Source: Allonocardiopsis opalescens (GTDB taxonomy: Bacteria; Actinomycetota; Actinomycetes; Streptosporangiales; Streptosporangiaceae). From it: DNA of 64,000 nucleotides. A program made the position numbers and the translations under genes. This document shows positions 7,328-11,637 of the stretch, piece by piece. The DNA is taken from NCBI RefSeq assembly GCF_003002095.1, contig NZ_PVZC01000002.1, forward strand, positions 434,001 to 498,000, written 5' to 3'. The notes below the pieces were generated by a model that saw only the letters and a list, made by a program, of their open reading frames with translations, did no database searches and was not told the DNA's origin. The first letter of the stretch is position 1. Each line of letters starts with the position of its first letter.

Positions 7328-7359
7328 GTTCCATAAACAGAACGTTCTGTTTGCGGAAC
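7328..7359. promoter_or_regulatory. Large palindromic operator between aminotransferase and XRE-cupin gene
   Basis: The core AAACAGAACGTTCTGTTT (7335-7352) is a perfect 18-bp palindrome. It is flanked symmetrically by GTTCC (7328-7332) and GGAAC (7355-7359), so 28 of 32 positions show two-fold symmetry. It sits 10 bases before the aminotransferase ATG and just upstream of a possible -10 box TACAGT (7378-7383) of the divergent regulator gene. The likely ligand is the XRE-cupin protein encoded next to it, acting on both genes. Confidence 0.8.
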
Positions 7360-7966: not shown

Positions 7967-8428
7967 TCAGCGGCCGTGGTGCTGCCCTTGCGAGGCGCGG
8001 CCCGCGGGCGCGTGGTCGCCGGGGCAGCCGCCGCAGCGGCCGAAGACGGTGAGGTGGTGGATGTCGGTCTCGAAGCCGAGTTCGCCGCGCAGCCGGTTCA
8101 CGAAGCCGTCGGCGACGGACGGGCTGATCTCGATGACCTCGCCGCAGTCGCGGCAGACCAGGTGGATGTGGTCGGCGTGCTCGGCGAGGTGGTAGGTGGG
8201 GGCGCCGTGGCTGAGGTGGGTGTGGGTGACCAGCCCCAGCTCCTCCAGCAGCTCCAGGGTGCGGTACACGGTGGAGATGTTCACGCCCCTGGCGGTCTCC
8301 TGCACCTTGGCGCAGATCTCCTCCGGGGTGGCGTGCACCAGGTGCTCGATGGCCTCCAGCACCATCTGCCGCTGCGGGGTCACCCGGTAGCCGCGGGAGC
8401 GGAGTTCTTGGTGCCAGGTCGCCGACAT
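7967..8428 (-). CDS. Fur family metalloregulator (possibly Nur)
   Basis: 153-residue Fur-superfamily repressor. The winged helix spans about residues 8-85 (YRVTPQRQMVLEAI, then NISTVYRTLELLEELGLV). The dimerisation and metal domain has the HADHIHLVCRDCGEVIEI motif and a second cysteine pair CGGCPG near the C-terminus, together forming the structural Cys4 zinc site. The ATG at 8428 is preferred to one 18 bases earlier because it aligns with the family N-terminus. The regulatory metal cannot be read reliably. From the neighbouring nitrobindin and ygfZ genes I suspect the nickel-responsive Nur type known in Streptomyces; Zur or Fur remain possible. Confidence 0.88.
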   Translation of the reverse strand: MSATWHQELRSRGYRVTPQRQMVLEAIEHLVHATPEEICAKVQETARGVNISTVYRTLELLEELGLVTHTHLSHGAPTYHLAEHADHIHLVCRDCGEVIEISPSVADGFVNRLRGELGFETDIHHLTVFGRCGGCPGDHAPAGRASQGQHHGR

Positions 8429-8476
8429 GCCTCCGAGTGTATGCATGGCCGTGCGACGCGGCTCACGAAAAAAGAG

Positions 8477-8506
8477 TTGCCTCCTGCGTCCGGTGCCGCA
8501 TAGCGT
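8477..8506 (+). promoter_or_regulatory. Housekeeping-type promoter of a short structured transcript
   Basis: TTGCCT (8477-8482) and TAGCGT (8501-8506) are spaced by 18 bp, close to the actinomycete vegetative consensus (TTGACA - 18 - TAGRRT). It points away from the Fur gene on the plus strand, where no annotated-size gene begins for almost 1 kb. The expected start is near 8513. Confidence 0.65.
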
Positions 8507-8537
8507 TCAACTACGCGCGAAAGGAGGTGGTCCGAAA

Positions 8538-8576
8538 GTGCATGCTTCTAGGACTCGCGAGGTGGCTGTCCGCTAG
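8538..8576 (+). CDS. 12-residue peptide frame behind a near-perfect ribosome site
   Basis: GTG start followed by 11 codons and TAG, giving VHASRTREVAVR. It is preceded by AAGGAGGTGG (8521-8530), an almost complete anti-16S match, 7-8 bases from the start codon. No such site would be expected by chance here. It may be a regulatory leader whose translation controls folding of the RNA that follows, or a genuine micropeptide. I have a vague memory of similar basic 'TREVA' peptides in other actinomycetes but cannot confirm it. Confidence 0.4.
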   Translation: MHASRTREVAVR

Positions 8577-8705
8577 CCGCCGTCGCCTGGTTGCCAGTCG
8601 ATGACGGCTCGCGAATCCAAGGCAGACACCCGGGCCCCTGGGGGTCGACACCAGTCCGGTCGACCGGTCTCCGTCCGGAGACGACCCAGGGGTTCGCCCA
8701 TTTTC

Positions 8706-8730
8706 GGGGGCCGGCCGGCGGCCCCCTTCT
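8706..8730 (+). terminator. Intrinsic-type terminator of the structured RNA
   Basis: A 7-bp all-G/C stem (8706-8712 with 8720-8726) with a 7-nt loop is followed by a T-rich stretch. It closes the plus-strand unit and may also act on the minus strand just beyond the end of the nitrobindin gene. Confidence 0.55.
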
Positions 8731-8755
8731 CGTCTCGGCCGAGCGCCGCCGGACC

Positions 8756-9298
8756 TCAGCGCACCCGCTTGAGCTGCGCCGACAGGTACGACTGGAGCGG
8801 CTCCCCGAAGGCCGCGATGTCCCAGGCGTAGCCCAGGTCCTCGCCGATCATCCCGTACAGCCGGTGGCCGCCGGTCACCTCGTGCGCGGTCTCGGTGCGC
8901 GCCACCACATCGGTGTGCAGCTCCACCCGGCGGAAGGCCACTGTGCCGACGTAGACCTCCGAATAGCCCTCGGGGTGCGTCAGCAGCACCTCTACGCCGT
9001 TGTCGAGCCCTTCGGCCTCCTCGGCGCCCGCCTGCGCGCCGTCGGCGCCCGGCCGCGCGGCGCTCACGGGCCGCCAGAAGCCCGACTCCGCGGCAACCGT
9101 CTCGCCGATGCGGCCGTCGTCGTCGAGGCGCCAGGCGGTGCTGGTGTACACGAGGTAGGGCCGGCCGGTGTGGGTGAAGGTGACTTCCTGCCCGAAGCGG
9201 AAGCCGTCCATGGTGGCGTGCCCGCCCACTCCGGCGCCCTCCCAGACGCCGAGCAGGAACGACAGCCTCTCCAGAGCCGGGTGCAGCGGTGTGTCCAT
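8756..9298 (-). CDS. FABP-like nitrobindin family protein
   Basis: 180-residue ten-stranded beta-barrel protein of the THAP4/nitrobindin family (peroxynitrite-isomerising heme proteins in actinobacteria and plants). The N-terminal signature L-G-x-W-x-G-x-G is present (LLGVWEGAGVG, residues 14-24), with the FGQEVTFTHTGRPYLVYTS strand pair behind it. The ATG at 9298 gives the family N-terminus; the longer frame upstream is unlikely. Near the C-terminus, where relatives have a heme-ligating His in a P-L-x-x-H-L-x-A context, this protein reads P-L-Q-S-Y-L-S-A, so heme binding may be altered. It is upstream of fur on the same strand, with the structured RNA antisense between them. Confidence 0.85.
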   Translation of the reverse strand: MDTPLHPALERLSFLLGVWEGAGVGGHATMDGFRFGQEVTFTHTGRPYLVYTSTAWRLDDDGRIGETVAAESGFWRPVSAARPGADGAQAGAEEAEGLDNGVEVLLTHPEGYSEVYVGTVAFRRVELHTDVVARTETAHEVTGGHRLYGMIGEDLGYAWDIAAFGEPLQSYLSAQLKRVR

Positions 9299-9446: not shown

Positions 9447-10244
9447 GTGATGGCGCTGGCCGGTGCTGCGCTCGTGATCGTCGCGGCGCTGGTCGCCCCG
9501 CTGGCCTGGACGGCGCTGCGGCGCTGGTGGCGGGAGGCGGCACGGCGCCGGATGGCGCCGCCGCCGGAGCCGGGCGTGCCCGCGGTGCTGGTCGGCACCG
9601 CCGCCCCGGGCCCCGGCGGCCCGGTGGAGTCGCGGCTGGCCGGGGTGGAGTGCGTCTGGCACGGCCACGAGGTCCGCCGCCACTACCGCACCCGCCCGGC
9701 CCCCCGCCGCCGCCCGGCGCACGCCGAGACCGCGGAGCGGCCCGACCCCTCCCAGGGCGGCGAGGCGCCGCCCGGCGAGCTGCGGTGGGACTCCATCGCC
9801 GAGTTCACCTCGCCCGACACCTTCGTGCTGACCGGCCCCTTCGGTCGGCTGCTGGTCGACGGCCGCGAGGCCGTGCCCGACGACGCGCTCATGTGCCTGC
9901 AACGGGTGATCTCGCGCAGCGCCGAGCGCAGCGGCAAGGGCGACGACCTCCTCGCCCGGGTGGCCGGCCGCATCTCGGGCGTGTTCCGCGGCGAGACCCT
10001 GGAGTTCGAGTACCTGGAGTGGGTGGTCAGACCGGGCGAGCAACTGGAGGTCACCGGCGCGGTCGAGGAGCGCGACGGTGTGCCGGTGCTGACGGCACCG
10101 CCCGACGGGCGGCTGCGCTTCGCCGCCGCCCCGCCCGCCCCGCACCCGCCCTTCGGCCCCGCCGACGCGGTCCGCGCCGTCGGCTACGGCGTCACCGTCG
10201 TGCTGACGGCCGCGGCGGGCGTCACCCTGCTCGCCATCGGCTGA
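9447..10244 (+). CDS. GIDE-domain ('E3 ubiquitin ligase-like') membrane protein
   Basis: 265-residue membrane protein with an N-terminal span (residues 2-24), a cytoplasmic or luminal middle, and a C-terminal span (about 240-263). The segment from VECVWHGHEVRRHY (about 70-83) through EYLEWVVRPGEQLEVTGAV (near 190-208) follows the GIDE domain pattern, found in the mitochondrial ligase MUL1 without its RING finger in bacteria. The biochemical role of bacterial members is unknown. The start may be the GTG at 9447 or the adjacent ATG at 9450; GAGAGG lies just upstream. A second protein of the same family follows two genes downstream, with dsrE between. Confidence 0.7.
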   Translation: MMALAGAALVIVAALVAPLAWTALRRWWREAARRRMAPPPEPGVPAVLVGTAAPGPGGPVESRLAGVECVWHGHEVRRHYRTRPAPRRRPAHAETAERPDPSQGGEAPPGELRWDSIAEFTSPDTFVLTGPFGRLLVDGREAVPDDALMCLQRVISRSAERSGKGDDLLARVAGRISGVFRGETLEFEYLEWVVRPGEQLEVTGAVEERDGVPVLTAPPDGRLRFAAAPPAPHPPFGPADAVRAVGYGVTVVLTAAAGVTLLAIG

Positions 10245-10297: not shown

Positions 10298-10660
10298 ATG
10301 GCGCGCTCTCTGGTGATCAAGGCCACGGCCGGAACCGACGAGCCCGAACGCTGCAACCAGGCGTTCACCGTCGCGGCCTCGGCCGCCGCCAGCGGGGTGG
10401 AGATCTCCCTCTGGCTCACCGGCGAGGCCGCCTGGCTGGCCGTCCCCGGCCGCGCCGAGGAGTTCGAACTCCCCGAGGCGGCCCCGCTCGCCGACCTGAT
10501 CGGCACGGTCCTGGCCGCCGGACGCATCACCGTCTGCACCCAGTGCGCCGCCCGCCGCGGCCTCACCGGCGAGGACCTGCTCGACGGCGTCCGCATCGCC
10601 GGTGCCCCCGCCTTCGTCGAAGAGGTCACCGCCGAGGGCGTACAGGCGCTGGTGTACTAG
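10298..10660 (+). CDS. DsrE family protein
   Basis: 120-residue cytosolic protein of the DsrE/DsrF-like fold, related to sulfur-relay proteins. It starts with the typical beta strand SLVIKATAGTDEPERCNQAF and has a cysteine pair C-T-Q-C near residues 80-83 (ITVCTQCAARRG) that could take part in thiol chemistry. The ATG lies 7 bases after TAGGGT, suggesting a leaderless mRNA. Neighbours on both sides are GIDE-domain membrane proteins. The specific partner or sulfur pathway is not known. Confidence 0.82.
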   Translation: MARSLVIKATAGTDEPERCNQAFTVAASAAASGVEISLWLTGEAAWLAVPGRAEEFELPEAAPLADLIGTVLAAGRITVCTQCAARRGLTGEDLLDGVRIAGAPAFVEEVTAEGVQALVY

Positions 10661-10881
10661 CCGGAGCGCTTCGATCGCATCCGCCCCGAGCCGGGCCACA
10701 GCGTCCCTGTCCTTCGCCCGGACATGCGGCGGACCGTCCTGGACGCGCGGCACCGGCGGCCGTCTGACCTGATCCGGCCGCTTCCGCCCCTGTCGCCCGC
10801 CACCGGTCCATGCGTCTCTTATGGCGCGGTATAACCGCATGGCCGCCGCCATCCGGCGGCGCGGGACGAGGGGGGGGCGGA

Positions 10882-11637
10882 GTGCAGGTCGAACTGATAG
10901 TGGCGCTGGGGCTCGGGGTGGTGGCGGCCGGGCTGGCCGTGTTCGGGTACCTCTCGCGCAAGAAGCGGTGGCGGATGCAGGACACCCCCACGCTGAGCGT
11001 GGTGGAGATGAACCAGGCCCTCGGGCTGCGGGCCGAACTGCACTGCGAGGCCGTGGGGGTCGCGCAGCCCGGTGCCGGCGGGCCGGTGCGCGGCCCGTTC
11101 TCGGGCACGGCGTGCGTGTGGCACCGCACCACCGTCACCCGCCACTACGAGAAGTGGGAGTACAACTCCCAGACCAAGCGGCGCGAGCGGCGGCGGAGGC
11201 AGCAGCAGGTGGCCGACGAGCGCTCACCGGCGCCCTTCCGGCTCCAGGACGACAGCGGTCTGCTCACCCTCGCGCCCGCGGAGGCGTCGGTCGACGGCGC
11301 GGTCAAGAGCTTCGACCGCTACCAGGAGGCCCGCGACGGCCACACCGTGCAGCTGGGCCCGTTCAGCTTCCGGGCCGGGGGTGGCGGCACCCTCGGCTAC
11401 ACCTACCGGGAGTGGATCATCACCCCCGGCACCCGGCTGTACGCGCTCGGCCAGGTGGTGCGGCAGGGGCCCGAGCTGGTGATGGCCAAGCCCGAGGGGC
11501 AGGAGTTCGTCGTCTCCACCCGCAGCGAGGCCGAGATCACCAAGGGCCTGCACATCCGGGAGCGGATCGGCTTCATCGGCGCGGCCGTGGCGGCCGCGGG
11601 CGGGGCGGTGGCGGCGCTGCTGCCGGTGTTCGGCTGA
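10882..11637 (+). CDS. Second GIDE-domain membrane protein
   Basis: 251-residue homologue of the protein encoded two genes upstream. It has an N-terminal span (residues 3-24), a basic stretch, the motif TACVWHRTTVTRHYEKWEY (about 74-92; compare CVWHGHEVRRHY in the paralogue), and the YTYREWIITPGTRLYALGQV strand near 175-194. A C-terminal span covers about 228-249. The GTG at 10882 is preferred because the in-frame sequence before it is low-complexity Gly/Arg/Pro. It is about 220 bases behind dsrE; the intervening DNA shows nothing certain. Function unknown. Confidence 0.7.
   Translation: MQVELIVALGLGVVAAGLAVFGYLSRKKRWRMQDTPTLSVVEMNQALGLRAELHCEAVGVAQPGAGGPVRGPFSGTACVWHRTTVTRHYEKWEYNSQTKRRERRRRQQQVADERSPAPFRLQDDSGLLTLAPAEASVDGAVKSFDRYQEARDGHTVQLGPFSFRAGGGGTLGYTYREWIITPGTRLYALGQVVRQGPELVMAKPEGQEFVVSTRSEAEITKGLHIRERIGFIGAAVAAAGGAVAALLPVFG

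Follow-up and report, generated by a model that had tools for sequence, protein, structure and literature searches.

Between genes for a nitrobindin and a Fur-family regulator, both on the opposite strand, the 64-kb stretch of DNA analyzed here (the window) carries a short gene for a structured RNA. An earlier note on this sequence had placed a self-contained structured RNA gene at this position. Pfam agrees on the neighbors (Fur-family; THAP4/nitrobindin-type, PF08768), and the gene itself is borne out by a match to an Rfam family, a promoter pattern of its own, and a fold and reading frame common to relatives. By cmscan, the sole match in the window at gathering threshold is Ms_IGR-5 (RF02471), located at 8513-8702 on the + strand, where all RNA features described below also lie. 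The match covers model positions 1-184 of 184 and scores 94.5 bits against a gathering score of 45 (E 7.6e-20). The Rfam family, the complementarity of the ribosome site to most of the 16S tail and the pseudoknot had gone unrecognized in the earlier note.

On re-reading of the sequence, the parts that had been named, namely the promoter TTGCCT-N18-TAGCGT, AAGGAGGTGG, the mini-frame, the fold and a hairpin, were all located as described. The -35 element TTGCCT (8477-8482) is separated by an 18-nt spacer from the -10 element TAGCGT (8501-8506), and a putatively UP-element-like A-tract (8468-8473) lies directly 5' of the -35. An A-rich block at similar distance was found in 54 loci of the same family or order and in 120 named loci among the matches listed. 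The promoter pattern TTG-(16-19)-TANNNT recurs at comparable distance in 186 of 242 loci versus 0.6% of shuffles, with TANNNT starting 22 nt upstream of GGAGG in 109 loci and 23 nt upstream in 101. The RF02471 model starts at 8513, 7 nt past the -10, where the 5' end is expected. Strict consensus scans found neither a sigma-70 site nor a U-tract terminator at the locus. The terminator that had been proposed stands in part: a GC hairpin (8706-8726) is present and is followed by TTCTCGTCT, making a terminator-like element with a weak T-rich tail (8706-8735) by sequence reading, but the strict scan reports no U-tract. This hairpin also faces the convergent nitrobindin gene. As predicted from sequence, the Ms_IGR-5 RNA here is most likely a stand-alone small RNA of about 215 nt.

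Distribution of the family

Ms_IGR-5 is listed in Rfam as an Actinobacteria sRNA, and its founding paper is said to be a study of M. smegmatis. Two reports describe Ms_IGR-5 transcripts as sRNA in S. lividans (PMC8079986) and S. avermitilis (PMC8780764). A third reports ribosome footprints on the RNA, both for M. abscessus and for M. smegmatis, with its authors' caution that footprints on ncRNA may stem from co-sedimenting RNPs (PMC4974804). The family is already known, and its score places this copy within it. The conserved frame with its drifting peptide, the long match to the 16S tail and the pseudoknot may be new: in a literature search by family or locus name and by topic, the listings and passages covered mention neither these features nor a function.

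With the Rfam model, a match was found in 99 of 100 genomes of the same family, the exception being a 74%-complete genome, and in all 200 genomes drawn from the same order, a set that overlaps the family set in many genomes. Across the phylum 70 of 396 genomes match at E <= 0.001, with 35 above the cut-off, and none of 14 control genomes match. Our own covariance model, R1, which has the corrected structure and omits the pseudoknot, matched 77 of 198 genomes drawn across the phylum. Thirty-nine of these were also among the Rfam-model matches, some of which had been used in training R1, and the other 38 were new to R1. Two RF02471 matches occurred within one genome in G412 (C299:989-1297, side by side) and in G514; these are possibly tandem copies or one split match.

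Comparisons were made on 243 loci, which reduce to 228 or 232 distinct cores depending on the way duplicates were removed. The sequences share ancestry, and counts are not independent events. The 120 named loci are the matches listed for a search pattern in which GGAGGTG, GGAC and GAGGTG were fixed, so conservation of these letters cannot be argued from them; the pattern left start, stop and frame free. Among the 38 R1-only matches, one (L289) is cut at a contig end and two duplicates were removed, leaving 35 for the frame test. L271, which lacks the GAGGT motif, was included in that test and omitted from the frame-length comparison.

Conservation of the reading frame

The 12-codon frame VHASRTREVAVR occupies 8538-8576, with start GTG at 8538 and stop TAG at 8574-8576. 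A start 6-14 nt past GGAGG that is open in frame to the fixed stop exists in 227 of 228 distinct sequences; the same test on the two control frames left 0 and 33 open. ATG, GTG or TTG is available in 209 of the 227, and the remaining 18, all outside the class of the window copy, offer CTG, ATT, ATC or ATA only. The lone exception (L031) has ACG as its only candidate start. In the later set, whose sequences had entered neither the search pattern nor the model, the frame is kept in 35 of 35 sequences (31 with ATG, GTG or TTG), and the other frames are open in 0 and 8. An invariant UGA in the core partly blocks the control frames, so the variable stretch was tested separately. There the kept frame is stop-free in 224 of 224 sequences versus 95 and 119 for the other two. 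An alternative frame from ATG 8542 (MLLGLARWLSASRRRLVASR) was rejected on those same two counts.

Start and stop are themselves kept. Inside a variable loop, 99% of 189 sequences, mostly of the same class, retain the T of the start codon, and 99% retain its G. The stop is TAG in 207, TGA in 16 and TAA in 9 of 232 sequences, and lies five codons past GAG(GTG) in 224 of 228 distinct cores; in L056, L061, L062 and L065 it is 1 nt nearer the motif and is again reached by an open frame. In 237 of 237 sequences the stop codon keeps its U (T in the DNA), although in 178 the partner in helix P3 is G, with which C would make the better pair. Frame lengths range from 10 to 17 codons, overall and within the later set, and the frame of L271 spans about 12 codons from ATT by eye. 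Judged by this conservation, the frame is real. A translated frame, as in a dual-function sRNA, is supported here through conservation (227/228 and 35/35).

Drift of the encoded peptide

Substitution ratios were calculated for the 200 of 243 loci, duplicates retained, that have GAGGTG and an ATG, GTG or TTG 36 nt before the stop. Over 166 pairs sharing ancestry, pN/pS was 0.93 for codons 2-12, 0.82 for codons 2-4, which row selection leaves unaffected, and 0.70 for codons 6-12, where selection for GAGGTG fixes Glu-Val at codons 8-9 and the remaining residues also serve RNA pairing. Conservation thus gave no sign of the purifying selection on the peptide expected of a micropeptide or dual-function gene (pN/pS 0.82-0.93). 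Codon 6 is Thr in 200 of 200, and codon 7 is Arg in 144 and Cys in 50, alternating with changes in a pair of helix P1a. A run of one amino acid was not found among the frame codons of the 200 loci. In a displaced group (L061, L062, L065 and, in the later set, L269, L270, L275 and L290) the motif is read in another register and Gly-Gly replaces Glu-Val; the genomes concerned carry several family labels (f22, f47, f53, f69).

The earlier note had allowed for a micropeptide gene, in which the 12-residue peptide is the product that matters. The kept frame, the constant Thr at codon 6 and a Glu-Val that is constant through row selection would suit such a gene. Ratios of 0.93 and 0.82 do not, however, and the constant residues sit in paired or invariant RNA, codon 7 follows its P1a pair, and in some families the motif is read in a different frame, giving Gly-Gly. 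We therefore regard a micropeptide as very unlikely. The note had also looked to relatives for conservation of the stem and peptide; stem and frame are kept there and the peptide sequence is not. Because the frame is kept through changes of length, start, stop and register while the peptide drifts, the act of translation is singled out as the selected trait. From these comparisons we conclude that selection maintains translation of the frame, or at least its capacity to be translated, and for the most part does not act on the peptide.

Ribosome-binding site

The ribosome site, described earlier as near-perfect, extends to both sides of AAGGAGGTGG (8521-8530): with G-U allowed, an extended Shine-Dalgarno (SD) sequence of 16 nt (8519-8534) is complementary to the 16S 3' tail, and the long match is kept in relatives. 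Of 232 distinct cores, 231 have 15-20 complementary nt when G-U is counted, and the remaining core has 12. An 18-mer matching the 16S tail sequence used was present in 6 of 21 genomes searched, and the 20-mer was not found in this draft assembly, which may lack rRNA ends. Spacing from SD to start is 10-12 nt in 202 of 232 cores, while exactly 12 codons occur in 191. AAAGGAGGTGRTCC has a single occurrence in the 6.97-Mb assembly, at the Ms_IGR-5 locus.

Such a site raises the prospect of a ribosome trap, in which the RNA works by binding 30S subunits through its complement to the 16S tail, and the frame serves only to clear ribosomes that have become stuck. The long complementarity, the uniqueness of AAAGGAGGTGRTCC in the genome and an A-tract promoter that could be strong all fit this reading. 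A trap would, however, have no need of the conserved knot described below, nor would it explain why a G-U pair is kept at 8530, where the base is G in 226, A in 10 and T in 1 of 237 sequences although A is the better pair. We consider a trap improbable.

Comparative fold and pseudoknot

The nested fold of the earlier note was recovered as a predicted structure with a minimum free energy (MFE) of -117.9 kcal/mol (z -3.43; equalled or bettered by 1 of 200 shuffles). Covariation supports a different fold. The MFE fold lacks helix P1a, and the MFE program cannot form a pseudoknot. We trust the comparative fold over this single-sequence prediction.

For the comparative fold, 70 sequences were hand-picked from 119 diverse ones and aligned without structure (alignment A2). 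Six helices including a pseudoknot pair 88.1% of cells, and 310 cells are changed on both sides. None of 500 shuffles reached any of five measures and sliding destroyed the fold; shared ancestry in the 70-sequence set can itself exceed shuffles. P1a (8514-8517/8556-8559) has codon 7 and the first base of codon 8 as its 3' strand; three of its four pairs change on both sides, and 97.1% of cells are paired (99.3% in the later set). The pseudoknot joins GGACU (8551-8555, codons 5-6) to AGUCC (8653-8657) in the loop of P4b, with two of five pairs changing on both sides (36 cells at 8555/8653) and 92.0% of cells paired. P2 pairs GGUGGCUGUC (8561-8570), which runs from the last base of codon 8 to codon 11, with 8621-8630; six of ten pairs change on both sides and 90.4% of cells are paired, and in this copy 8565/8626 is a non-standard G-A. 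P3 (8572-8577/8607-8612) holds the stop codon, 8574-8576, in its 5' strand, with five of six pairs changing on both sides and 82.7% of cells paired; here 8574/8610 is U-C. P4a (8635-8641/8685-8691) and P4b (8644-8648/8660-8664) change on both sides in six of seven and five of five pairs, with 89.9% and 76.7% of cells paired, respectively.

Mutual information across 237 aligned sequences, calculated with no structure given, ranked the P1a pairs at the top and placed P2, P4 and two pseudoknot pairs high, beside some column pairs that do not pair. The pseudoknot recurs in later sequences with other letters (GCGACC/GGTCGC, GTGACC/GGTCAC, TGTGACG/CGTCACA). In alignment A3, which comprises 37 new R1 matches and the window copy fitted to the pseudoknot-free R1, four types of pair keep 8551/8657 paired in 30 of 31 cells (gaps in 7 of 38 rows), and pairing at 8555/8653 fails in 10 of 31. 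Two added outer pairs fail in 11 and 17 of 32.

Two other helices were rejected. P1b, which would pair GGUCC (8529-8533) with GGACU (8551-8555), shows a two-sided change at none of its pairs, and in later sequences GGACC varies with the P4b loop while the SD side is GGTCC in nearly all; it may serve as an alternative pairing. P1b would account for the G at 8530, but without covariation. Helix 1 of the Rfam model (8526-8531/8565-8570) shows no change on both sides in any of its six pairs across the 70 sequences, with 89.5% of cells paired. Since 47 of the 70 are RF02471 matches, some under the cut-off, this failure is a weakness of the family model and not of this copy. P1a, P2, the pseudoknot and the frame are absent from the RF02471 structure line.

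Between P3 and P2, a conserved unpaired G-A-A-U-C-C-like stretch (8610-8620, CGCGAATCCAA) is seen in much of the alignment, a possible protein or tertiary contact.

Genomic context

In the window the RNA overlaps neither the fur nor the nitrobindin coding region, and the next downstream gene is convergent. Neighbors were taken as the three nearest predicted genes per side, using clusters and a simple GC-frame gene finder. A nitrobindin-like gene is nearby in 90 of 243 loci, a Fur-like gene in 50, both in 41 and neither in 144; many loci reach just 1.5 kb and some less, so these are low estimates. The antisense RNA on fur or nitrobindin mRNAs that was suggested earlier would, if acting in cis, suit the placement of the RNA between both genes on the other strand and the 41 loci with both clusters. 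We find this extremely unlikely given the lack of coding overlap and the 144 loci with neither cluster, where frame and fold are nevertheless common; the change of neighbors argues against such control. Because frame and fold are common to differing neighborhoods, the RNA most likely acts in trans.

Hairpins downstream of a short frame whose stop is fixed also call to mind a leader peptide with an attenuator of a same-strand downstream gene, and in 81 of 228 loci the first predicted gene downstream shares the strand of the RNA. These genes are spread over many clusters, the largest among those listed holding 11 of 228, and a conserved same-strand downstream gene was not found across the 228 loci. 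With a convergent next gene in the window and no run of codons for one amino acid as well, attenuation is highly unlikely as the general role, but the RNA may serve as a leader in single lineages, given those 81 loci.

Proposed function

Judged by coordinates, the pseudoknot, P1a and P2 all draw one of their strands from codons 5-11, and P3 includes the stop codon. Comparison places the start codon in a variable, A/U-rich loop. Since codons 5-11 form three core helices, translation and folding should exclude each other. We judge the chances about even that the Ms_IGR-5 RNA works as a stand-alone small RNA and that translation determines its state. A 30S subunit would dock through the long 16S duplex, and a ribosome reaching the stop would strip the pseudoknot, P1a and P2 and sit on the foot of P3. 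Untranslated RNA would instead fold into the knot, whose core would block the frame and leave the ribosome site and start accessible in the P1a loop. The balance between the translated, open form and the untranslated, knotted form would then report the ease of ribosome start and movement. Candidate outputs in trans include protein binding, release of the C-rich 3' strand of P2 for SD-like targets, and holding of 30S subunits. Our guess is that the knotted form is active when translation falters. As to the peptide-controlled riboregulator proposed earlier, control through the mini-frame is the best supported part, and it is translation itself, not the peptide sequence, that appears to matter.

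A simpler account would see an ordinary structured sRNA in which translation of the short frame only tunes lifetime, through ribosome cover or ribosome-coupled decay, with no sensing. It would explain a kept frame with a free peptide, and P1a, which starts beside the predicted 5' end, could shield the RNA from decay. Left unexplained are the coincidence of the coding strand with the strand of three core helices and the 15-20 nt match to 16S, and we think this account rather unlikely.

If translation and a pseudoknotted, trans-acting form are mutually exclusive, the RNA whose state is set by translation would read ribosome supply or initiation rate directly. We tentatively propose, with less confidence than for a translation-set state as such, a phylum-wide RNA sensor of translation, in which the signal is ribosome loading on the 16S-matching site and a run through the frame, with the peptide a by-product. 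In a regulator of this kind, coding would serve a stand-alone RNA solely as a mechanical switch. A family that Rfam enters as an sRNA is probably translated, and the first helix of the family fold needs revision. Being matched in each of 200 genomes from the order and in 77 of 198 from across the phylum, the RNA can be put to the test in laboratory actinobacteria.

Relation to known systems

Dual-function sRNAs such as SgrS/SgrT, RNAIII/hld and Spot 42 carry a peptide that is conserved or active. The Ms_IGR-5 RNA resembles them as a stand-alone small RNA with a short frame; it differs in keeping the frame but largely not the peptide, and in using strands of core helices as the frame. tmRNA likewise combines pseudoknots with a short frame in a small structured RNA. 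In contrast to tmRNA, Ms_IGR-5 has its own ribosome site and start codon, and no tRNA-like part was found (ARAGORN, 0 genes in 8300-8900).

Leader-peptide attenuators and regulatory uORFs adjust the action of an RNA when their short frame is translated. One report describes such modulation by a uORF in the S. aureus rbf leader (PMC13009471). The likeness to these systems, here proposed from comparison, lies in short-frame translation modulating the RNA; Ms_IGR-5 differs in having no general same-strand downstream gene and no diagnostic codon run. The same report describes extended Shine-Dalgarno sites in S. aureus with long SD-aSD pairing, non-canonical starts and small ORFs, all of which have counterparts here. 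The distinguishing features of Ms_IGR-5 are a match of 15-20 nt, its occurrence in one phylum-wide RNA family, and a frame inside a pseudoknotted core. RF02471 itself is alike in its full-length match above the gathering score and differs in a helix 1 that does not covary and in a structure that lacks P1a, P2, the pseudoknot and the frame.

Other features of the neighborhood

A perfect 18-bp palindrome, AAACAGAACGTTCTGTTT, lies at 7335-7352, with a class I/II aminotransferase gene (-) on one side and the divergently oriented gene (+) for an HTH_3 regulator on the other. It is the only match in the window even at three mismatches and is perhaps the putative operator of the HTH_3 regulator. Two proteins with the GIDE domain, which takes its name from an E3 ubiquitin ligase, are encoded at 9447-10244 and 10810-11637, on either side of a DsrE-family gene at 10298-10660. 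By eye, DsrE-like and GIDE-like clusters recur near the Ms_IGR-5 RNA in relatives.
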